Shown here piece after piece: positions 48,730-63,472 of a stretch of 64,000 nucleotides of DNA. This stretch comes from an uncultured Ignavibacteriota bacterium. GTDB taxonomy: Bacteria; Bacteroidota; Ignavibacteria; UBA10030; UBA8401. The DNA lies in the NCBI GenBank assembly GCA_903861125.1, contig CAIOTF010000016.1, positions 1 to 64,000 of the forward strand. Direction: 5' to 3'. Both the position numbers and the translations under genes were made by a program. The notes beneath the pieces are model-generated. The model worked only from the letters and a program-made list of their open reading frames with translations, was not told the DNA's origin and did no database searches. Numbering within the stretch: position 1 is the first letter of the stretch; each line of letters starts with the position of its first letter.

Positions 48730-51243
48730 TTACCGTTCAAACCAGCTTGTTCTTCCGCTTTTCATATTTGGAGCAACGACAGGGACGGAATATTTTTTCG
48801 GCACCGGCTGCATCCACGAAACGGTATTGAAACGGGATGTATTCCATTCGGTTGATAACGAGTCCGAAACCAGCCATGTTCGGTCCGATGCGATCACCTG
48901 AGTAGTTCCGGCGGAAGAAACGATCTCGCCGTACACATTAATCCCTGCGGAACCATTCTCCTGGAAATTCTGCGCCTCCACTCCGATCACATTCGTAGAA
49001 TCGGTCAGGAACGGCGCAATATCATAGATCTTTGCGCGCTGATTCTCAACCGTTAATGAAAGCGACCGGCGAGCAGCCACTTCACCGACCGCTTTACCGT
49101 TCACCGATAATTTCGCCCACGTATCTCCAAGCAGTTGCACATTGGCAGATCTCACATTTTTATCTGCGACGAACGTTGTGCGGAAGAATGCCCTGGAAAT
49201 CTGCAGCGAATCCTTCACCCCCGGATTTGCTTTGGGATGATAGATCCACTGACTCTTTAACGTAGGATCAATATCGCCGCGCTGTACAAGTTCCGGCAGT
49301 TCATTCCAATATGCCGTTTGACGGTCATACCGCTCCAGCAGAAGACTGATCGACTCAGTCTTATTTGTGGTATGCCATACTTTTTCAAAATCGCTCTTTA
49401 CCGCCGCCAGTTCTTCCGTAATTTTTTTGCTGACTGCAGTAATCTTCGTAACTTTATCATTCCGTAATATGACGGTATCCTTCAGCAAAAACCGAATCCG
49501 TTCCTGAGCTTCGACCTTTGCCGCAAACCAAAGATTCAATTTTGCAGCGAAGGTAAGATACTGTAAATGATCGTTGTTCCGTGTTATTGTCTTTGCAGAA
49601 TGTTCAAGAAGTTCCAGAACCAGCGGCATGGTTGAATTGATGCTCTGCATCCGCTGCATCAGCGGAAGACGCTTCTCCCAAACCATATCGTCGCGGTTGG
49701 GCAGCATAGGATGACGCCACAGTTCGAACCAGTGGTACTGATTTGCAGGATCGCTTAAAAGCGCATACACGGAACGGATGTTGTCTGTTTCACGAGTGCC
49801 GAAAAAATCGGCAAAGAATTTTTTGCCGAACAATTCCTGATCCGCTGCCGGTGGATTCCACGCACACTCAGCATTCCACGCGTATCCGTAATAATTCAAT
49901 TCGCGCAGCGCTTCGCCGCCAAAATCGTTCCAACTGGAACAGAGTATTCCCTGCGAACCATTTTGATAACCATCCATATTCAGGTTCTGTATGTTCAGGA
50001 ATGTGTTGAGGTAATTCGGAAAAGGACCTGTAAAATTCCAGACGGCCGGAGATACAACATAGGGAAATCCTGCATTCTTAAATATTTCGGGACTCGTATA
50101 ATCGAATGATGTGCCATAGTGCCAGTCCACCATCACAACATCCTGCGGAATTTTGGAAAGAATTTCCGGATGGTCTAGAATGATGTCGCCGTACATCATC
50201 GGCTTTTTGCCGTGTTTCTTCACTATATCGAATATCCGTTTGTAATGTTCGGCATGAACGGTTGCAAGGTCGCTTTTCTTCACACGCGCTTTGTTCACTC
50301 CCAGGCCCACATCCCACGATTCATCCGCAGCGATATTGAAATACGGCGAGCTGAAACAGGAAGCGATCTCGCCGATCATTTCATCGAGCATTGCATACAC
50401 TTTTTCATCCGAAACATTCACCGTATGCGCACCGGGAAATTCGGCATACTTTTCATATTTGGGCTGAATAAGGATATTTTCCCAATGACCGAGTGTTTCA
50501 AAGATCGGTACAACGTCTACAAAATATTTTTTTCCGTAGGCATCAAGTTCCCTGCATTCAGCAGCCGTGAGAGTGCCGCGGTTCTTGCCGATCTCCGGAT
50601 GTTTTTTGAATTGGAACACATCCTCGATGTACGGTGAGTAGACATTCATTTTATATCGCGCACAGAAACGGACGATCTTCTTGAAGTTTGCTAATGTTGA
50701 TATCTGCCCGCGGCTGATGTCGTCCGTGATGCCGCGAATCTTCTGCAACGGATAATCATGGATCGCCGCGCCGCTCACCACCAAACTCCGTTTCTCCATC
50801 CGCATCATTTGCAGCAGAGACATTGCGCCATAGAACAATCCTTTATCCGACTCCGCTATGATGACAATCCCTTTTGCATCAACATCCAGAAAATACCCTT
50901 CGGATTTCATCTCCTGCGTCAGTTTTCCCTTCCGTTCGGCAAGTAATTTTTTTCCGTATTCCGTTGCCGGTTTACCAATGAAGATGTAATTGGAGGTCAA
51001 TTTGCGGAGCGAATGTTCTGTGGTAATTTTAAGCTGTGTCCCTTTATGCGCCGATATTTCTTCGTTCAGCTGTTCGGCAATGAATTGTTTTGCCGGATCA
51101 TCGTTACTGATAATGATCTTCGTTGCCGAAGAGATCTTGAACAGAGTGTTCTTTTCAATGACCGAGTGCGGTTCGGGAATGATCTGCGGAATTTCGGCCG
51201 AAACAATTGAAGAAAGAAAAAGAATGGAATAGATCGGTTTCAT
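48730..51243 (-). CDS. Exported GH20 beta-N-acetylhexosaminidase
   Basis: 837 aa. Signal peptide at residues 1-16. Residues about 18-150 are the GH20b domain ('IPQIIPEPHSV...'), residues about 160-500 the catalytic barrel ('RGITDDISRGQISTLANFKKIVRF', 'VVPIFETLGHWENIL', 'FNIAADESWDVGLG' with the catalytic Asp307-Glu308 pair, 'MYGDIILDHPEIL', 'VMVDWHYG'). A helical part and, at about 680-820, a jelly-roll domain follow. Known: GH20 enzymes release terminal GlcNAc/GalNAc using the substrate N-acetyl group, with the Asp-Glu pair at the active site. It would act in the periplasm or outside on chitin- or peptidoglycan-derived sugars. The Asp-Glu context is 'AADESWD' rather than the classical 'GGDE', a divergent branch. 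Confidence 0.88.
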   Translation of the reverse strand: MKPIYSILFLSSIVSAEIPQIIPEPHSVIEKNTLFKISSATKIIISNDDPAKQFIAEQLNEEISAHKGTQLKITTEHSLRKLTSNYIFIGKPATEYGKKLLAERKGKLTQEMKSEGYFLDVDAKGIVIIAESDKGLFYGAMSLLQMMRMEKRSLVVSGAAIHDYPLQKIRGITDDISRGQISTLANFKKIVRFCARYKMNVYSPYIEDVFQFKKHPEIGKNRGTLTAAECRELDAYGKKYFVDVVPIFETLGHWENILIQPKYEKYAEFPGAHTVNVSDEKVYAMLDEMIGEIASCFSSPYFNIAADESWDVGLGVNKARVKKSDLATVHAEHYKRIFDIVKKHGKKPMMYGDIILDHPEILSKIPQDVVMVDWHYGTSFDYTSPEIFKNAGFPYVVSPAVWNFTGPFPNYLNTFLNIQNLNMDGYQNGSQGILCSSWNDFGGEALRELNYYGYAWNAECAWNPPAADQELFGKKFFADFFGTRETDNIRSVYALLSDPANQYHWFELWRHPMLPNRDDMVWEKRLPLMQRMQSINSTMPLVLELLEHSAKTITRNNDHLQYLTFAAKLNLWFAAKVEAQERIRFLLKDTVILRNDKVTKITAVSKKITEELAAVKSDFEKVWHTTNKTESISLLLERYDRQTAYWNELPELVQRGDIDPTLKSQWIYHPKANPGVKDSLQISRAFFRTTFVADKNVRSANVQLLGDTWAKLSVNGKAVGEVAARRSLSLTVENQRAKIYDIAPFLTDSTNVIGVEAQNFQENGSAGINVYGEIVSSAGTTQVIASDRTWLVSDSLSTEWNTSRFNTVSWMQPVPKKYSVPVVAPNMKSGRTSWFER

Positions 51244-55287: not shown

Positions 55288-56547
55288 TCAGAATTTATAA
55301 CGGTAACTAAAGGAGAATGAATAAACCTCAACATATTCCCCTAAGCTGAAACTCAATTCTTGTCTGGTATAATCAGCAGCGATATTCAATAACGAATAGA
55401 CCCCTAGCGGTTTCTGCCAGCCGATTCCGAACGACCGGGCTTTGAGCAGATAAATATTTCCGCTGGTAGGATCATAGTTCCGTTCGTCCGGAGAAAAACC
55501 GGCTCCGGCTTTCATCGAAGCGTATTCTTCGGCTGTTCCGTCGTAATACCAACGCGTTGTTGCACTGAGCGACCGTGAAAAACTTACACTGCCGGGTGTG
55601 ACGAACGGACGAAGCGAGAACCAATAGTCCTTATAATAGTAACCGAGTGAGCCGGTATAGATTGTAATATCGCTTCCGGGTCCAAAATTCAAATACCGTG
55701 CGCCGAAAGAACCTTCAAAACTTGACGGCAGTTTTACAAATCCCTCAAGGCCTGCCCGATGCTGCGAAAACAGTGATGAGGACGAACCGGCAAAACCATA
55801 GCTGACATACGCATACACACCGCTTATGATCCTCGGATACGCATCAATCTCAAACTGCAATCCATCCTTGCCTCGTGTGTTGCGGTAGTTCAAACGCCCG
55901 ATGACCGAGCCGAAATACGTCGACCGGTTGTACTGAACCGCTACAAGGTGATTGGGATCAAACACCTTGCTGTACCGGTCATATGTTTCGCCGACACTGA
56001 TTCCCTGCATAACGAAATCCGATTTTATTGATTCACGTATCCTGGGAACTTCCGGATTCGACGGATTAAGATCCTCCAAAATTGCCAGCGTAATCAATGC
56101 TTCATCCTCCCGCTTCAGGCTCCGAAGGATCTTAGCTTTGTTGACAAGGAATTGTTCATTGTTTGGATATTTTCTCAGCCCTGTTACACAGATCCTTAGT
56201 GCTTCCTCCGGTGCATCGTCCCAGAGTTCTACATCAATCGCAAAGAGTAAGGCTTCCACGTTGAATGGTTTTTGATCTAGTACCATCCGGAGTTCTTTTC
56301 GCGCCTCGTTTCTCATGCCATCCCACGCAAGCGTACGAGCATAGAAAATTCGTATATCCGCATAATTCGGACTCTGCCGCAACGCAATCGTCAGAAGCAC
56401 TCTTGCCGAATCCCGCCGGCTGTTGAAAGCCAGGTCGCGTGCACGCCGGAACAATTCTTCGGTACCAAGCGAATCCAACGATGTTTGCGCCGGAACGAAT
56501 TGCGCCGCTGTCAGTATCGTCAATAGAAGTATAAGTTTAATTTTCAT
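55288..56547 (-). CDS. YaiO-like TPR outer-membrane beta-barrel protein
   Basis: 419 aa. Signal peptide at residues 1-20 (MKIKLILLLTILTAAQFVPAQ). Residues about 25-165 are TPR-like helices ('LAFNSRRDSARVLLTIALRQSPNYADIRIFYARTLAW', 'FNVEALLFAIDVELWDD'). Residues about 185-419 are amphipathic strands ending 'VYSFSFSYRYKF', matching the YaiO family of outer-membrane barrels. Known: TPR-barrel proteins such as PgaA export polysaccharide; YaiO lies beside a glycosyltransferase in E. coli. It is the last gene of the cluster 63339-55288, 69 bp after the sulfatase-like gene, whose TPR tail it resembles. Probable role: export porin. Confidence 0.82.
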   Translation of the reverse strand: MKIKLILLLTILTAAQFVPAQTSLDSLGTEELFRRARDLAFNSRRDSARVLLTIALRQSPNYADIRIFYARTLAWDGMRNEARKELRMVLDQKPFNVEALLFAIDVELWDDAPEEALRICVTGLRKYPNNEQFLVNKAKILRSLKREDEALITLAILEDLNPSNPEVPRIRESIKSDFVMQGISVGETYDRYSKVFDPNHLVAVQYNRSTYFGSVIGRLNYRNTRGKDGLQFEIDAYPRIISGVYAYVSYGFAGSSSSLFSQHRAGLEGFVKLPSSFEGSFGARYLNFGPGSDITIYTGSLGYYYKDYWFSLRPFVTPGSVSFSRSLSATTRWYYDGTAEEYASMKAGAGFSPDERNYDPTSGNIYLLKARSFGIGWQKPLGVYSLLNIAADYTRQELSFSLGEYVEVYSFSFSYRYKF

Positions 56548-56616
56548 AATGGTACAATGAAGTAATTGAAGAACATTTTCACACTATGCATCACGAAACG
56601 GATCACGCCGAAAGAA

Positions 56617-59103
56617 TCATCGTCTTCTCATTGCTCCTGCGATCTTCAGTTCCAATGCTTTTGCGTCGGCAAGCTGCGGAGACTGTTTAAGAACTACTTT
56701 CACTTCCCGCTGTGCCTCCGCGTTTTGTCCTTTCTCGAACAGGATCTTTGCTTTCATTAATCGTGCGTACGTATTTTCAGGGAGCAGATCCACGGCATGT
56801 GCCGCATGCTTCAGTGCCTCGTCGGCATTACCGGACCAATATTCCGTTTGCGCAAGACCAAAATATGCATCGGAATAATTCGGTGAGCGTCGGATCACTT
56901 CCGTGAATGCTGCCGTTGCTTCCGCGTACCGGTGCTCCCAGGCAAAGGTCCTTCCCATCAATGTCCGTACATCGTGATAATCGGGATTGAGGGCAAGCAG
57001 CCTTCTGCAAATTCCGCGCGATTCCTCGTAAAATCCTTTGAATGCGGTATCCCGCGCAATATTAAACCATTGATCGCTGTTCCTGTCCATGCGGTCGATC
57101 GCCGCAAACAGCGAATCGTCGTTTGTTGATACCGCCGCAAATCGTTTCAAATTATCGGAAGGATAAATTTTATTCGAGGAGCAGACATAGGCGCAGAGCG
57201 ATACATACGCAGAGCGCTTTGCTTCGAGCGTCTTCCTGATATCGTCATTCTTAATCTCCTCGATCCGCAGACCGTCAAATACTTCAAACAGCCGGTCGCC
57301 GGAAAGGTAATACTTTCCGTCAAGATAATCCGAGATCTCTCCTTTGAACGGCATGAACGCCCGCGAACGGAGATTGCGGTAATCTTTTGCCGTGTCCATG
57401 ATCGTACCGACCCAGTGCGATTCTTTGGGAAGATTCATAGCATAGTTTTTCTTTAAAAATCCGAGGATCGTCGGAACAAAATCGGCATGCGTCGAAACGG
57501 AGAGAATCTCCGCCGGTTGCTTCAGCATCGGAGAAAAAATGATGAATGGAACTCTGTACCGGTCGATCTTCGTATCGGCCGGAACGGGTATTAAGCGGTG
57601 GTCACCGGTAATAACAAAAATCGTGTTGCTGAAGTCGCTGCGCTTTTTATACGCTTCAATGAAATGCCGTATAGCGTCATCAGAGTACAGCAGCGCGGAA
57701 TAGATCTCCTTGTACTGTCCATAGCCCGTTTTCTTTTCCCCGCTCAGGTTCATCGTGTCGAGCATTCGCTCGAACAATTTCTGGTATTGCTCCCAATGCG
57801 GCGGTTTGAACGGTTCATGCGTTGAAAGTGTCAGATACAGATCCAAACGCGGAACAAAATTTGCCTCGTTGATATCCTGCAGAGAACGTTTGAAAAGATC
57901 ATCATCGGCATACCCCCACGAAAAACCGGTCTCCGTTGGCGGGGATTTTTCATACGGCGGCAGAAAATCCCCTTCATCGATGATGTTCCTGATCTGCTGC
58001 CGTTCGAGGAAGATATTCTGCTTGTCGAAATTGATCCGTCCGCCGTAATAGAACGAAGAGCGATAGCCGTTCTGCTCCAACAGAGTAAAGAGTGAACGGT
58101 GATCCGGCATGTCTGACGCCAGTTCCATGAATCCTTTTTCACTGAACGGCAATGATGCCGTCAGCGACGGGAGCACTCCGAATGTGCGTCCGGTTGTGCT
58201 GAGAAAATTTTTAAAGAAAAGACTTCTCCGCGAGAGTGAATCGATAAACGGCATGAATCCGGCGTGGTTCCCGCCATTCACGAACGAACTTCCCATCCCT
58301 TCAACGATGACGATTACGATGTTCGGTTTTGCTTGCTGAACGTTCATAAAATTTCCCAGAACGTCGGTATAGTCAGCGGTATGGAGGAACGGATATTCCT
58401 TCTCCGAATATCCTGTACCGCCGAACACCTTTTGAACGAAGTACTGCGCAGACTCTCTGGTGAAATGAAGCGTTTTATTTTCCGCAATATTGAATTCTAC
58501 CTCGCTCCCGAAACTTCCCGGTGACGGTTCAAAAATAAACAGCAGCGGAAACGATAGAACGGACAAACCGTAAAAACCCTGCACAAGAAATTTTGGAGAA
58601 GGTAGCTTTAATGCAATTGCCGGTAACGCTGCGATGAACACTCCGATCGCAATGAAAAAGAGAGCGATAAAAGGACTGACACCGCCGGAGGCACTGACGG
58701 TTTCCCGAATATCGCTCAATGAATATCCGTACAGATCCGCACTGAGAGGAAGCAGGGTAACGGTAAAATATTGCGTCAACCCCAAAGTGAGAAAGACGAA
58801 GAACATCAACAGCGCAAGATGCACCCGCATGGCAACAACAACGTTCGCAGCATTCGACAGCAGATGGTACACTATGGAAAGCACGAACATTACACAGGCA
58901 ATAAAAATTATATCTGCAACAAAGGACCAGAAGATAATATTTGCAAACGACGCATCGGCAGGGACTGCATGACCGACAGCAATGAGTTCATACAGACGGA
59001 TAAGGAGCAGCAATATTCCCGCAAAGAAATTCACCGCCACAAACGGATGTGAATTGTACAGCAAACGGTTCCCCGTTCTTTCAACGACTGATTGATCAGG
59101 CAT
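56617..59103 (-). CDS. LTA-synthase-like membrane phosphotransferase/sulfatase with C-terminal TPRs
   Basis: 828 aa from the ATG at 59103; a TTG lies two codons upstream. About five transmembrane helices between residues 20 and 195. The alkaline-phosphatase-fold domain follows: 'PNIVIVIVEGMGSSF' (metal Glu near 268), 'FFKNFLSTTGRTFGVLPSLTAS' (candidate nucleophile Thr near 304), 'LYLTLSTHEPFKPP', and 'TIFVITGDHRLIP' with the metal Asp-His pair. Residues about 680-828 are TPRs ('YFGLAQTEYWSGNADEALKHAAHAV'). Known: LTA-synthase-type enzymes move glycerol-phosphate or ethanolamine-phosphate groups outside the inner membrane. The TPR tail is unusual. It lies 37 bp after the GT2 gene, so a role in decorating the polymer made there is inferred. 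Confidence 0.85.
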   Translation of the reverse strand: MPDQSVVERTGNRLLYNSHPFVAVNFFAGILLLLIRLYELIAVGHAVPADASFANIIFWSFVADIIFIACVMFVLSIVYHLLSNAANVVVAMRVHLALLMFFVFLTLGLTQYFTVTLLPLSADLYGYSLSDIRETVSASGGVSPFIALFFIAIGVFIAALPAIALKLPSPKFLVQGFYGLSVLSFPLLFIFEPSPGSFGSEVEFNIAENKTLHFTRESAQYFVQKVFGGTGYSEKEYPFLHTADYTDVLGNFMNVQQAKPNIVIVIVEGMGSSFVNGGNHAGFMPFIDSLSRRSLFFKNFLSTTGRTFGVLPSLTASLPFSEKGFMELASDMPDHRSLFTLLEQNGYRSSFYYGGRINFDKQNIFLERQQIRNIIDEGDFLPPYEKSPPTETGFSWGYADDDLFKRSLQDINEANFVPRLDLYLTLSTHEPFKPPHWEQYQKLFERMLDTMNLSGEKKTGYGQYKEIYSALLYSDDAIRHFIEAYKKRSDFSNTIFVITGDHRLIPVPADTKIDRYRVPFIIFSPMLKQPAEILSVSTHADFVPTILGFLKKNYAMNLPKESHWVGTIMDTAKDYRNLRSRAFMPFKGEISDYLDGKYYLSGDRLFEVFDGLRIEEIKNDDIRKTLEAKRSAYVSLCAYVCSSNKIYPSDNLKRFAAVSTNDDSLFAAIDRMDRNSDQWFNIARDTAFKGFYEESRGICRRLLALNPDYHDVRTLMGRTFAWEHRYAEATAAFTEVIRRSPNYSDAYFGLAQTEYWSGNADEALKHAAHAVDLLPENTYARLMKAKILFEKGQNAEAQREVKVVLKQSPQLADAKALELKIAGAMRRR

Positions 59104-59146
59104 GGTCAATTTTTATAAATATTGAGAGACATTAAATTTATTTTTA

Positions 59147-60574
59147 TTATTTCCTCTTAAATCCTACGCGCGTCATCACGCCCCACGATTGTACGCCGCG
59201 GGCATAATCCCAGAATGCCTTGATCCGCCACCAGACGGTGATCTGCCGGTATCCGAAATTTTCAACAACAGCAAGCACAAGCAACTTCAACAGATCCTGC
59301 GTTCGCGGATAACGGTGGAATGATATCTCTTCAAGAATAACAGAACTTATCGAGAACATCACACCATAGATGACCGAGACAACAAAAAAGAGGGTAAAGA
59401 TTTCGGCGTTCACCATTCCGAAATAAAATCCAAGACCGACAGCAACATACCCGATCGCTTCAATCACCGGCCCCAATAATTCTATGAAGACAAAATACGG
59501 CACGCTGACGAGCCCGAGCACCTTATACCGTTTATTGAAGAGCATTTTCTTGTGAATCAGCAGCGTATCAAGCAATCCGCGATGCCAGCGATTCCGCTGC
59601 CGGCCGAGTATTTTCAGCGTTTCCGGCGCTTCCGTCCAGCAGACCGGATCGGGAACAAATTCCACGCTATAGGGGATATTGTTCTCCAGGCAATACCGGT
59701 GCATCCGCACAATCAATTCCATATCCTCACCGACGGTATTATGTTTGTATCCCCCCACCTTGAGCACGATCTCTCTGCTGAATAGTCCGAAGGCTCCGGA
59801 AATAATCAAAAGACCGTTGATTGCTCCCCACCCCATTCTGCCCGAAAGATATGCGCGGTAATATTCTATCACCTGAAAGGACGGGATTAATTTTTTCGAC
59901 AGACGCACATCCAAAACATGTCCTCGTTCGATCTTGCATCCGTTTGCAATGCGCACAATTCCGCCCACGGCAATCACCCGGTCATCATCCAAAAACGGTT
60001 TGGCTACTTTCAACAGTGCATCGCTTTCAAGGATCGAATCGGCATCGATGGCACAGACAAGCGGATAGCGAGAGACATTGATTCCGACATTCAATGCGTC
60101 CGCTTTGCCGCCGTTCACTTTGTCGACAACAATCAGATTCCTGTATTCCGTCTTTCGCGATACGTAGATGCCGCGAACCTCCTTCGTTGCAATCGCAGGA
60201 ATGTATGCCCGTTCCGTTTTTATCAGATCGAATTCTATTATCATTATTTCGAGCGTATTGTCCCTGCTTCCATCGTTAATGAAAAGGACTTCCGCTGTCG
60301 GATAGTTCAGCTTCAGCAGCGAGATCACGCTTTCAACGCATGTTGCGGATTCATTGAATGCCGGTGCAAGGATCGAAACGGGAGGAGCCAATTCGGACTG
60401 CATGATCACCCGGTAGTCACAGAATTCGTGACGGCGTAAATAGGTAATGATGGCGCCAAACGAGATGGCATACATGGAAAAATAGAACACGTTCACGAAA
60501 ACAAAAAATCCGATGATAAACAACGCATAGGTGTTCAGCACAAGATTGGTGAACTCAATAAAAAGTTCCATCAT
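59147..60574 (-). CDS. Family 2 processive glycosyltransferase (membrane)
   Basis: 475 aa. N-terminal transmembrane helices at about residues 15-45. Catalytic core: 'VSILAPAFNESATCVESV', Asp101 in 'LFINDGSRDNT', DxD at 177-179 ('CAIDADSILE'), Glu283-Asp284 in 'TVGEDMELIVRMH', and QxxRW at 326-330 ('GRQRNRWHRGLLDTLL'), the signature of processive enzymes such as PgaC and chitin or hyaluronan synthases. Four C-terminal transmembrane helices lie at about 345-430. No PilZ domain. It should polymerise a UDP- or GDP-sugar while threading the chain across the inner membrane. Its ATG overlaps the stop of the HEAT protein gene by four bases, so the two are coupled. Confidence 0.9.
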   Translation of the reverse strand: MMELFIEFTNLVLNTYALFIIGFFVFVNVFYFSMYAISFGAIITYLRRHEFCDYRVIMQSELAPPVSILAPAFNESATCVESVISLLKLNYPTAEVLFINDGSRDNTLEIMIIEFDLIKTERAYIPAIATKEVRGIYVSRKTEYRNLIVVDKVNGGKADALNVGINVSRYPLVCAIDADSILESDALLKVAKPFLDDDRVIAVGGIVRIANGCKIERGHVLDVRLSKKLIPSFQVIEYYRAYLSGRMGWGAINGLLIISGAFGLFSREIVLKVGGYKHNTVGEDMELIVRMHRYCLENNIPYSVEFVPDPVCWTEAPETLKILGRQRNRWHRGLLDTLLIHKKMLFNKRYKVLGLVSVPYFVFIELLGPVIEAIGYVAVGLGFYFGMVNAEIFTLFFVVSVIYGVMFSISSVILEEISFHRYPRTQDLLKLLVLAVVENFGYRQITVWWRIKAFWDYARGVQSWGVMTRVGFKRK

Positions 60575-61674
60575 ACGTTATCCTCATCAATCGTTGAGGT
60601 ATCCACCGGTAATCCCGCCTCATGCAGGAACTGCATCGCGATCATCCGCACTTCAGCATCATCAAGCGTCACTGCATAGGTCAAACTTTTAATCCCTAAT
60701 TTTCCGGAACGGGCCAACGCCTCTGCGGCGGCAAACTTCACTTTCAGCGTATCCTTCACCAGCATCCAATAGAGATCGTACGCCATGGACGGCGTAGAAA
60801 GATTCCCCGCAGCTTTGGCCGCATCAACGCGCAATTGCTCATCCTCAGAAAATAAAAACCGTTGTATGACAGGAATACTTCGTTCATCGCCGATCCTTCC
60901 CAGCGCAATCAGACTCTTGTGTTTCACATCGCGGACCGAATAGTCAATATATTCAAGCAATGTGGGGGTTGCCTTGATGTCGCCCAAAATACCAAGCATT
61001 TCAACGCTAAATCCCTGTATTTTCGGATATTTTGACTGCATCGCCGTTACTAAATGAGGGACCGAATTCTCGCCAAATGCGAGAATGGACCGCGACAGTC
61101 TCACCTGCATCCACGGCGTCATCTCCTTCAGCCGCATCAGAATCGGACCGAGGATTTCCACTCCGGCTATATCAAGCATCGCCTGTGCTGCTTCGGTCCT
61201 GACATCGTCGTTCTGATCATCAAGGCATTTTTCAAGGTACGGCAGCGACGATTCATTCATCATCAATCCCGCATTTTTGCTTCCTTTCGCGCGGATCCAC
61301 CAGCGGTCATCCTGAAGGGATTTGTTCGTTTCATCCACAAAACCGAAATAATGAAATGCGTGGGTCAGCCGTACAAGCGTTTCGCCGATCACTTCTGTTG
61401 TCAGTTGGAGCATGACACGTTTCAACGATCGTTTGCGGGGATTGTTCCTTGAGACGTTTACGATTTCGAGTCCGTTTTCCAGTTGAACGAGATACGGCTG
61501 GAGGCGCCGGATAAATTCGGCACGGTGTGTATTGACATCGTCGGTATCGATGTCGGCAAAGAGATATTCGTTAAGGAGCGCACGAGTGTGGGTATCGTTG
61601 CGGTCCAATTTCGTTTCAATGGATCCGGCACGCACCTTCGAAACGATCAGAGCGATCGATCCCAAGGCGATCAA
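60571..61674 (-). CDS. HEAT-repeat membrane-anchored protein, N-terminus uncertain
   Basis: 367 aa as given from a TTG at 61674, but the hydrophobic helix is cut. The frame continues upstream as 'IFFLFVLVTTFLALFLIALG...' without ATG, GTG or TTG before a TGA near 61750. One base fewer in the T7 run (A7 at 61712-61718 on the plus strand) would join a GTG at 61741 ('TGKGHRHFF') in frame and give a positively charged start plus a complete transmembrane helix. Residues about 130-360 hold HEAT/PBS-lyase-like repeats ('LEKCLDDQNDDVRTEAAQAMLDIA', 'RDVKHKSLIALGRIGDERSIPVIQRFL', 'LRVDAAKAAGNL'). HEAT proteins are docking scaffolds; coupled to the GT2 gene, it may assemble the synthase complex. Confidence 0.8.
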   Translation of the reverse strand: MIALGSIALIVSKVRAGSIETKLDRNDTHTRALLNEYLFADIDTDDVNTHRAEFIRRLQPYLVQLENGLEIVNVSRNNPRKRSLKRVMLQLTTEVIGETLVRLTHAFHYFGFVDETNKSLQDDRWWIRAKGSKNAGLMMNESSLPYLEKCLDDQNDDVRTEAAQAMLDIAGVEILGPILMRLKEMTPWMQVRLSRSILAFGENSVPHLVTAMQSKYPKIQGFSVEMLGILGDIKATPTLLEYIDYSVRDVKHKSLIALGRIGDERSIPVIQRFLFSEDEQLRVDAAKAAGNLSTPSMAYDLYWMLVKDTLKVKFAAAEALARSGKLGIKSLTYAVTLDDAEVRMIAMQFLHEAGLPVDTSTIDEDNV

Positions 61675-61768
61675 AAAGAGCGCAAGAAATGTAGTAACAA
61701 GTACAAAAAGGAAAAAAATGGCGGTGTCCCTTCCCGGTCACGTGTGAATCAATGACGGATCGCGGCAA

Positions 61769-62959
61769 TTACCGCGTCCGACCCGACTGTTGTCTCACCG
61801 ATTCGTGCAGTATTTGTTTCATCATCGGAAGATAGAATTTCCAAAAGAAACGTGTCTGATCGGAAACATAATAGAACGAAAATAATTTACTCAGCACAAA
61901 CTCAACATTCCAATATTCGGCAAGAAGCGTTTCAACACGGTTATCGGCAAAGTCACCCGCGAAATAGATATTGCGTTCCGTCGAATCCGAGACCACCACG
62001 GCAGGAAACGATAGCGGCAATCCGGCGGTGATCATCTTCTCTTTTCCCTCCTGATTGCATTGAATTTCATATTGCGCTATCGTCCGTGCAGACGAATCGA
62101 CATTCATAATCTCAAAGAAATAATAATACGGAACATTGTCTTCGGTGTCCGTTAGCAGATGATGTTCGCTGTTCCGGATGATCACCGGTGTATGTGCAAG
62201 ATCGTGTGATTCAAGCACAATAATGGCCGGTTTTTCATCGCCGAGTTTTCGTTTAACGGTGATAATGAGCCCCCGTCCCGAAAAATCCCACTGCCGGCGG
62301 TATTGTTTCTCATACAGGTCTTTCATCCATCGCGCGGCGGTGTTCACATCGTCGTAATAGCGGCCGAGTGCTCCGGTGAACCGGACGCCGAACATCCGTT
62401 CGAGCCGTATCTGTACCGGCCTGTCGTCCAGCTGCGGATCCTGCATCGTATTGAATTCCGCAATCGACATTCTACCGAGCGAATCATACTGTTCGATCAT
62501 TTGCATCTCATCGCTGCTCATTCCCCCGTACTTAAGAGAAATGGGAATATACGTTTCGGGGATCAGCCGTTCATACCGGGCGTATTCCATCGGATAGTCA
62601 TACACTCCGTACGTATCGACGATGTATAACAGATTGGCATGCTGAAGTTGTAACTGCGAGAGTGAACTGTAGGAACTGTCTTTCGGCTGGAAGCCGTAGT
62701 AGTCTTTTTCCTCGTCGTAAAATTCGTTCGTACGCGGTTCAACGATCCTCCAGTGACGCAGCAGCCACATGAAAGAACGATGCTCGCGATAATCTTCGCC
62801 GGCGGTCTTGTCAATCACCACAACGGAAAGAGGTGTCGTGGGTTTAAGAAACCAATAGATATACGGAAGGACGAATACAACAATAAGGAGAACAACGATA
62901 ACGGAGATGATCTTGTGAGTGTAAATAAAACGCTTTTTCGTTCGTCGCATGGATAGCAC
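61769..62959 (-). CDS. Membrane-anchored protein of unknown function
   Basis: 396 aa from a GTG at 62959; the ATG three codons later (62950) is an equally good start. One transmembrane helix at about residues 15-33 ('IISVIVVLLIVVFVLPYIYWFL') after a basic N-terminus ('RRTKKRF'), so the rest is periplasmic. The large domain has alternating strands and helices, including 'SVVVIDKTAGEDY', 'ANLLYIVDTYGVY', 'GMSSDEMQMIEQYDSLGRMSIAEFN' and 'AIIVLESHDLAHTPVIIRN'. The pattern is reminiscent of a class I amidotransferase-like or Rossmann fold, but no family was recognised. It starts two bases after the stop of the response regulator gene. Its conserved place before the HEAT and GT2 genes suggests a periplasmic component of the polysaccharide system. 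Confidence 0.8.
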   Translation of the reverse strand: MLSMRRTKKRFIYTHKIISVIVVLLIVVFVLPYIYWFLKPTTPLSVVVIDKTAGEDYREHRSFMWLLRHWRIVEPRTNEFYDEEKDYYGFQPKDSSYSSLSQLQLQHANLLYIVDTYGVYDYPMEYARYERLIPETYIPISLKYGGMSSDEMQMIEQYDSLGRMSIAEFNTMQDPQLDDRPVQIRLERMFGVRFTGALGRYYDDVNTAARWMKDLYEKQYRRQWDFSGRGLIITVKRKLGDEKPAIIVLESHDLAHTPVIIRNSEHHLLTDTEDNVPYYYFFEIMNVDSSARTIAQYEIQCNQEGKEKMITAGLPLSFPAVVVSDSTERNIYFAGDFADNRVETLLAEYWNVEFVLSKLFSFYYVSDQTRFFWKFYLPMMKQILHESVRQQSGRTR

Positions 62960-62961
62960 CG

Positions 62962-63339
62962 TTAGGTCTTAATGCGCGCCAGGACAGTTTTCACGCGAAC
63001 AAGAAGTTCCTGAGGACTGAAAGGTTTTTTTATGTAATCTTCCACTCCGAGTGAAAATCCTTCAACAACCTCTTTTTCTAATGTGCGAGATGTGAGCATG
63101 ATAATCGGTATGGATTTATTTTTTGGATCCTTCTTCAGTTCAATAACCAGTTCTTTTCCATTCATGATCGGCATCATCACGTCGGTAATGACAAGATTGA
63201 CGATGGTATTTTTTAAAAATTCTATCGCTTCCGCGCCGTTATGGGCGGTAAATACCTCGTATCCTGAGTTCTTCAGTTTAAAGGTAACAAGCTGCTCTAT
63301 GTTGCTGTCGTCTTCAACGACAAGAATTTTTTCTGCCAT
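62962..63339 (-). CDS. Single-domain response regulator (CheY-like)
   Basis: 125 aa from the ATG at 63339; a TTG four codons upstream is also in frame. One receiver domain: 'KILVVEDDSN', phospho-Asp in 'LVITDVMMPIMNG', Thr in 'IIMLTSRT', Lys in 'VEDYIKKPFSPQELL'. No output domain. It is the first gene of the cluster, and the next gene begins two bases after its stop, so it probably controls the cluster's enzymes by direct binding. A TATATTTG box at about 63347-63354 fits a Bacteroidetes -7 promoter element just before it. Confidence 0.9.
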   Translation of the reverse strand: MAEKILVVEDDSNIEQLVTFKLKNSGYEVFTAHNGAEAIEFLKNTIVNLVITDVMMPIMNGKELVIELKKDPKNKSIPIIMLTSRTLEKEVVEGFSLGVEDYIKKPFSPQELLVRVKTVLARIKT

Positions 63340-63356
63340 ATATTTTAACAAATATA

Positions 63357-63396
63357 CAAAAAAAGCTAAGGGAAAGCACTCCGCCTTCCCTTAGCT
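63357..63396 (-). terminator. Terminator of tRNA-Gly
   Basis: On the minus strand GCTAAGGGAA ... TTCCCTTAGC forms a 10-bp stem followed by seven T residues. It lies directly downstream of the tRNA 3' end and just before the response regulator gene. Confidence 0.88.
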
Positions 63397-63400
63397 TTAG

Positions 63401-63472
63401 AGCGAGAGACGGGGATCGAACCCGCGACGTCAAGCTTGGGAAGCTTGCATTCTACCACTGAATTACTCTCGC
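63401..63472 (-). tRNA. tRNA-Gly (anticodon CCC)
   Basis: 72 nt. Acceptor GCGAGAG pairs with CTCTCGC. The anticodon stem CAAGC/GCTTG carries the loop TTCCCAA, giving anticodon CCC for GGG codons. T arm GCGGG-TTCGATC-CCCGT. Discriminator U73, normal for glycine tRNAs. CCA is not encoded. Confidence 0.93.

Follow-up and report, generated by a model that had tools for sequence, protein, structure and literature searches.

The window analyzed here, a 64,000-nucleotide stretch of contig CAIOTF010000016.1 from an uncultured Ignavibacteriota bacterium (assembly GCA_903861125.1), contains six genes, all on the minus strand, which an initial annotation made from the sequence alone described as a candidate system for exopolysaccharide synthesis, phospho-modification and export. 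The open reading frame (ORF) list of the window places all six at the positions first noted, and Pfam and NCBIfam searches agree with the proposed identities, except for one protein that matches no family. The first gene (62962–63339) encodes a single-domain receiver, i.e., a CheY-like response regulator of 125 amino acids (aa) counted from the ATG (Response_reg, 7.5e-27). It is followed, after 2 bp, by the gene (61769–62959) of a protein denoted UNK hereafter, which has no Pfam, NCBIfam or PDB sequence match and, by the positive-inside rule, is predicted to be periplasmic and anchored by one N-terminal transmembrane segment (TM). The third gene (60571–61719), with a probable ATT start, encodes a HEAT-repeat protein (HEAT_2, 1.4e-21) with an N-terminal TM and a HEAT domain that is predicted to be cytosolic. 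It overlaps by 4 bp the gene (59147–60574) of a glycosyltransferase family 2 (GT2) polysaccharide synthase that resembles PgaC but represents a distinct family (Glyco_tranf_2_3, 1.8e-22; D, DxD, ED and QRxRW motifs). Next, 43 bp downstream when counted from the ATG, comes the gene (56617–59109; start TTG 59109 or ATG 59103) of a predicted membrane phosphotransferase similar to lipoteichoic acid (LTA) synthase and OpgB (Sulfatase, 4.5e-33), in which a catalytic domain of the alkaline phosphatase superfamily (57457–58326; Pfam Sulfatase, residues 262–551) is followed by a C-terminal tetratricopeptide repeat (TPR) module (56638–57114) homologous to the N-terminal TPR domain of YaiO. The last gene (55288–56547), after a further 69 bp, encodes a YaiO-family outer-membrane protein consisting of a signal peptide, a TPR domain and a beta-barrel of about 230 aa (PF19413, 1.5e-51, 175 bits vs a cut-off of 23.9; TIGR04390, 149 bits vs a cut-off of 32). 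A tRNA-Gly(CCC) gene and then a strong, 17-pair terminator-like hairpin (63362–63472, minus strand) lie directly upstream of the receiver gene, so the operon probably starts there.

A profile search for the GT2 protein in 198 Bacteroidota genomes identifies matches in 49 genomes, about 25% of the sample, with E-values between 1e-219 and 1e-140; the next match appears only at 1e-52. The weakest member of the family scores 477 bits against the family profile, compared with 138 for E. coli PgaC, 66 for YaiP, 32 for BcsA and 15 for NfrB; PgaC, with 27.5% identity over 327 aa, is the nearest among the E. coli synthases. The best NCBIfam model for the window protein is PgaC_IcaA (TIGR03937), at 139.6 bits, far below the equivalog cut-off of 422.3, and the CelA model yields 52 bits vs a cut-off of 699. 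By these sequence scores, the GT2 proteins form a distinct and sharply bounded family; in the tree, the clade is separated from PgaC and YaiP with a support of 0.72 only, despite the large score gap, and the long branches of Legionella, Planococcus and Deinococcus are placed unsurely. The residues D101, D177, D179, D284 and Q326-R327-x-R329-W330 are invariant in all 19 diverse members compared, archaeal ones included, and the presence of the D, DxD, ED and QxxRW motifs predicts a processive enzyme.

Conservation of the gene neighborhood was assessed at 68 loci encoding GT2 proteins of this family, 59 from Bacteroidota and 9 from other organisms; the loci around 40 places were fetched, plus others, and they were picked by GT2, UNK or the LTA-like enzyme, never by HEAT. 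At all 68, a HEAT gene lies immediately upstream of the GT2 gene on the same strand, with a median overlap of 4 bp (67 pairs are within 40 bp, and 52 overlap), which bears out the coupling of the HEAT protein to the synthase that was proposed initially. The window genome (4.19 Mb) encodes one YaiO barrel, two LTA-family proteins and about 12 HEAT ORFs, and with this number of HEAT genes, chance adjacency to GT2 is expected in less than 1% of cases per locus. Because these same loci had served to refine the HEAT profile, ten cases were re-checked with Pfam; HEAT_2 is detected with E<0.01 in 9 of them, in six above the family cut-off. The HEAT–GT2 pair spans Bacteroidota, Bacillota, Pseudomonadota, Deinococcota and haloarchaea. 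For example, a tblastn search started with the window GT2 against named plasmids identifies relatives in Mesorhizobium, Erythrobacter, Legionella, Deinococcus, Bacteroides, Emticicia, Planococcus, Paenibacillus and three haloarchaea; the upstream neighbor is annotated in the records as “HEAT repeat domain-containing protein” in 9 of these 11 plasmid loci, and for Emticicia and Paenibacillus a profile located the HEAT gene (the Pfam match is weak for Emticicia). Distances within the HEAT and GT2 families co-vary (r=0.79 vs a permuted maximum of 0.12), and given that relatedness alone yields much of this correlation, it shows joint inheritance rather than contact.

A hydrophobic segment of TM strength is present in 67 of 69 HEAT proteins, nearly always near the N-terminus, and positive charges usually follow it, a positive-inside pattern seen in most homologs. 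This pattern predicts that the HEAT domain is cytosolic, on the same side of the membrane as the GT2 catalytic domain and the receiver; the topology of both HEAT and UNK was derived from simple hydropathy and charge pattern, not from a trained predictor. In the window, the ATT codon at 61719–61717, rather than TTG 61674, is very probably the start of the HEAT gene: the reading frame is closed upstream, the full TM begins at this ATT, whereas a start at the TTG would truncate it, and ATT or ATC is conserved as the start in four genomes (ATT in the window and L009, ATC in L010 and L011). In L009, too, the frame is closed upstream, and both there and in the window no ATG, GTG or TTG is found ahead of the TM; in all four genomes, purine-rich sequence immediately precedes the ATT or ATC. 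The gap between UNK and HEAT is accordingly about 49 bp instead of the 94 bp given by the initial annotation, the other spacings of which (2, –4, 43 and 69 bp) stand.

The initial annotation had asked whether the genes occur together in other genomes, and the set is indeed found across the phylum. All six genes recur in identical order in a Bacteroidetes metagenome-assembled genome (L011) and in further members of the family; elsewhere, the set is often rearranged or inverted, so it does not represent one inherited stretch of DNA. The phylum-wide recurrence, together with the small number of copies of the parts in the window genome, indicates an association beyond chance. The receiver is encoded within 6 kb of GT2 at 52 of the 59 Bacteroidota loci and at 5 of the 9 others, such that its initial designation as a partner holds for most loci but not for all. 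The core, receiver–HEAT–GT2, is common to bacteria, monoderms among them, and archaea. The six-gene set belongs to a real, conserved system that is wider than first noted and is probably a variant of the synthase-dependent exopolysaccharide systems. No published description of a HEAT, GT2 and receiver system or of a YaiO and glycosyltransferase system was found in a literature search that was thin on subscription journals.

The receiver is mostly a single-domain protein, with the acid pair, the phospho-acceptor Asp and the Lys intact in the window and in most homologs. In several families, hybrid kinases ending in Hpt domains adjoin the receiver gene, as expected for a phosphorelay. In one Bacteroidota family (L137, L138, L139 and L142), the receiver is part of a protein of 520–595 aa encoded beside HEAT–GT2, and at L137 the protein in the place of the receiver combines a GGDEF domain with two receivers, such that phosphorelay and cyclic di-GMP (c-di-GMP) signaling may converge there. 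In agreement with the initial annotation, Pfam and NCBIfam searches detect neither PilZ nor deacetylase domains in the six genes.

The YaiO protein is encoded at 49 of the 59 Bacteroidota loci and at all 4 of the other diderm loci (by profile; in Deinococcus and Erythrobacter, the evidence is confined to the TPRs), and none was found near the five monoderm and archaeal loci, as expected of an outer-membrane exporter. The combination of TPRs and a beta-barrel in diderms is that of known polysaccharide exporters, and the TPR region varies in length, with forms of up to 1013 aa that have long arrays like those of PgaA and BcsC. The YaiO barrel, although short, likely is a polysaccharide pore, and the logic of PgaC inside and PgaA outside that was seen in this locus originally is supported. 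On a Bacteroides finegoldii plasmid (L087, 6770–14540), the genes after HEAT–GT2 encode a TPR-YaiO protein of 988 aa and a protein with DUF4838.

The LTA-like enzyme combines a membrane domain with a Sulfatase domain that retains the metal ligands and the Thr nucleophile typical of LtaS and OpgB. Its residues E270, T309, H431, D503 and H504 align with the E, T, H and D-H of LtaS-type enzymes and are invariant in 12 of 12 relatives, so that the metal ligands on which the initial annotation had made its reading depend are in place. OpgB matches the profile of the LTA family at 46 bits, and BcsG shows no match to it at E <= 1, on which ground an identity as a BcsG-like phosphoethanolamine transferase was rejected. 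The enzyme is encoded at 29 of the 59 Bacteroidota loci and at none of the 9 others and is thus an optional Bacteroidota module, not part of the core. In seven proteins of 1134–1260 aa, GT2 and the LTA-like enzyme are fused, and the tree requires at least two independent fusion events, which is strong evidence that both work on a single product. The TPR tail matches positions 4–162 of the YaiO profile, i.e., the whole TPR domain (E 1.5e-50), and scores up to 78 bits against YaiO TPRs vs 17 bits or less against BcsC, PgaA and NfrA; no generic TPR control matches as well as YaiO. By sequence, the tail is a copy of the TPR module of YaiO. It is found in the clade of the window and in other families, including one fused protein, and is absent in many relatives of the enzyme. 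Hence, of the phosphotransferase with TPRs of its own that was predicted initially, the enzyme type and the intact residues are upheld, but the gene is optional and the TPRs are those of YaiO. A second LTA-TPR protein in the window genome (C41:38267–40711; L043:8274–10838), is 39–41% identical and has no link to GT2. A polytopic membrane protein, a large sensor kinase and an amino-acid permease-like gene are its neighbors, and L058 encodes an ortholog.

For UNK, searches with 14 diverse members also detect no Pfam or PDB match. Full-length homologs with about 25–32% identity are present in other Bacteroidota families, in 10 of 296 genomes by single-sequence search and in 13 of 395 by profile (the genome of the window is counted in both), and no further sequences were found in viral contigs. 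The homologs are nearly always encoded within a few kb of the receiver, HEAT, GT2, LTA-like and YaiO genes; at two loci (L045 and L052) UNK stands alone. In most members, the charge pattern around the TM is opposite to that of HEAT, which predicts a periplasmic domain. In Paenibacillus, this domain makes up the first third of a secreted protein of 1033 aa, and relatives of the remainder are encoded beside HEAT–GT2 in Paenibacillus and Planococcus. That remainder resembles a glycosidase at the motif level only (the look of a barrel and a beta-sandwich), and this assignment was dropped, with no family or PDB profile confirming it; the best PDB match is a mannanase, with an E-value of 0.05 for one sequence and none with a profile. 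A relationship of UNK to DUF4350/GATase-like domains, suggested by motifs, was also discarded given that hhalign scores are no better than those of controls. We tentatively propose, with low confidence, that UNK is a periplasmic glycan-handling factor.

Among the other neighbors, a GH20-type (hexosaminidase-like) protein is encoded 4 kb downstream of the six genes in the window (48730–51243), also on the minus strand, with none seen near the cluster in L011. Directly ahead of HEAT–GT2, a Planococcus plasmid (L088, 888–9242) carries genes for a VTC-type polyphosphate polymerase domain, DUF4956 and a CotH kinase. A GT2 of the same family with 38% identity is present in a “Bacteriophage sp.” record from human feces (MT836222.1, 6889–8148), which possibly is mislabelled bacterial DNA.

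Several characterized systems resemble parts of this one. The E. coli pgaABCD operon is likewise small and combines a PgaC-type GT2 inside with a TPR-barrel exporter in the outer membrane; here, however, HEAT and the receiver replace the PgaB deacetylase and PgaD, and GT2 is a separate family. In the E. coli yaiS-yaiP-yaiX-yaiO locus, a YaiO barrel also adjoins a GT2, but there are no HEAT, receiver or LTA-like genes, and YaiP reaches only the 66 bits given above; yaiX is broken by IS2, and to our knowledge this locus is uncharacterized. LtaS and OpgB (MdoB), of a family that transfers phosphoglycerol, share with the LTA-like enzyme the membrane domain, the alkaline-phosphatase-fold domain and the E, T, D-H active site, but the enzyme of the present system is linked, in some cases by fusion, to a GT2 synthase, has a TPR module of the YaiO type and does not conserve the W/R pocket of LtaS. 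E. coli NfrBA-YbcH also pairs a GT2 synthase with a large outer-membrane partner to make a secreted exopolysaccharide (PMC8669469), but lacks HEAT and a receiver, and NfrB reaches only the 15 bits given above with the GT2 profile. In the type II Bcs system for phosphoethanolamine cellulose (BcsABCG), BcsG, a membrane-anchored transferase of the alkaline phosphatase fold, decorates the synthase product in the periplasm, and a TPR porin is present as well, a precedent for a phospho-group on such a chain (PMC11379886); in the present system, the transferase is LtaS/OpgB-like by sequence and sometimes fused to the synthase, and GT2 has no c-di-GMP domain. The closest published precedent for the control step is Myxococcus EpsW, a single-domain response regulator that, when phosphorylated, activates exopolysaccharide synthesis by direct interaction with the membrane glycan enzyme EpsZ (PMC12802240); unlike here, EpsW acts on a phosphoglycosyl transferase that belongs to a Wzx/Wzy pathway, and neither a HEAT adaptor nor a synthase is involved.

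These observations are best explained by a synthase-dependent exopolysaccharide machine with receiver/HEAT control, LTA-like phospho-decoration and YaiO export, a reading that we consider probable. GT2 would polymerize a UDP-sugar, most likely N-acetylglucosamine (GlcNAc) or a relative, and pass the chain through its own membrane domain. The HEAT protein, co-produced with GT2 and anchored by its TM, would be an obligatory adaptor and partner on the cytosolic side of the membrane. On phosphorylation through a hybrid histidine kinase/Hpt relay, the receiver would dock on HEAT and switch synthesis, taking the place of PilZ/c-di-GMP control. In the periplasm, the LTA-like enzyme would add a phosphate-linked group, most likely phosphoglycerol, to the emerging chain, UNK may handle or trim it, and the TPR module common to the LTA-like enzyme and YaiO would bring chain and enzyme to the barrel for export. 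With regard to the substrate, glmS and a GlmU-like gene adjoin GT2 in Halosolutus and TviB/TviC-like genes lie near it in Legionella, which, combined with the similarity of GT2 to PgaC, hints at GlcNAc-type amino sugars; an amino-sugar-based polymer bearing phosphoglycerol or a similar substituent is probable. The more specific proposal, namely, that the phosphorylated single-domain receiver switches the synthase by way of the membrane-anchored HEAT adaptor, in a separate, undescribed class common to bacteria and archaea to which Bacteroidota would have added a phosphotransferase, sometimes fused, that borrows the TPR module of the exporter to phospho-decorate the outgoing chain, seems to us evenly poised.

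Several observations weigh against this reading. No receiver lies within 6 kb of GT2 at 7 of the 59 Bacteroidota loci and 4 of the 9 others, the phospho-Asp is degenerate in 2 of 17 receivers, and the fusion to GGDEF in one family leaves room for a role of c-di-GMP. The loci devoid of a receiver and the receiver-GGDEF proteins, along with the requirement of PgaC and BcsA for membrane partners, would fit a HEAT protein that is only a PgaD-like assembly subunit, with the receiver acting elsewhere, e.g., in a phosphorelay to transcription, and the system being constitutive or controlled by c-di-GMP. This is somewhat unlikely, considering that the receiver adjoins HEAT–GT2 in bacteria and archaea alike, mostly without an output domain and flanked by hybrid kinases with Hpt. 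Also unfavorable to the exopolysaccharide machine are the absence of the LTA-like enzyme from half of the loci and the residues D/Q at the aligned positions of the LtaS phosphoglycerol pocket (W354/R356); with an enzyme that is OpgB-like by profile yet has not kept this pocket, phosphoglycerol is a first guess for the transferred group and not a result. AlphaFold modeling of UNK from four close sequences gives a predicted local distance difference test score (pLDDT) of 34 and is not interpretable.

The YaiO barrel, moreover, is short for a polysaccharide pore, and OpgB and LtaS, which the enzyme resembles, act on periplasmic glucans and glycolipid anchors; both facts would suit a periplasmic or membrane-bound product, either similar to osmoregulated periplasmic glucans or lipid-anchored and teichoic acid-like, that the LTA-like enzyme decorates or extends while YaiO has another role. 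We regard such a product as unlikely given the frequent linkage of YaiO in Bacteroidota, its long TPR forms of the PgaA/BcsC build and the lack of an opgG/opgH-like gene in the cluster. That the locus is an ordinary poly-N-acetylglucosamine (Pga) or cellulose system from a clade with poor annotation, as the PgaC_IcaA model being the best match to GT2 and the TPR-barrel logic could imply, is highly improbable: GT2 is far under the PgaC cut-off, even the weakest family member scores well over three times the bits of E. coli PgaC, and no PgaB, PgaD, PilZ or BcsB was found. PgaB/IcaB deacetylase and PgaD/IcaD domains are missing from the six genes, with neighboring ORFs covered in part, and the lack of PilZ and the CelA score below the cut-off do not fit a Bcs system, in which BcsA with PilZ is accompanied by BcsB; a plain Pga or cellulose system was rejected on these scores and missing parts.

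Regulation of synthase-dependent pathways frequently involves c-di-GMP, and the known systems are described mainly as switched by it (PMC12802240); the machine described here suggests that some synthases are switched by protein phosphorylation instead. The presence of the synthase family in about a quarter of the sampled Bacteroidota genomes and in archaea, always with a HEAT protein and mostly with a CheY-like receiver, makes such control directly testable, in archaea as well. The fusions and the common TPR module provide a concrete, testable model of chain modification and handover to the exporter and point to phosphate-bearing matrix polymers in Bacteroidota. YaiO, UNK and the HEAT protein each acquire a candidate function.
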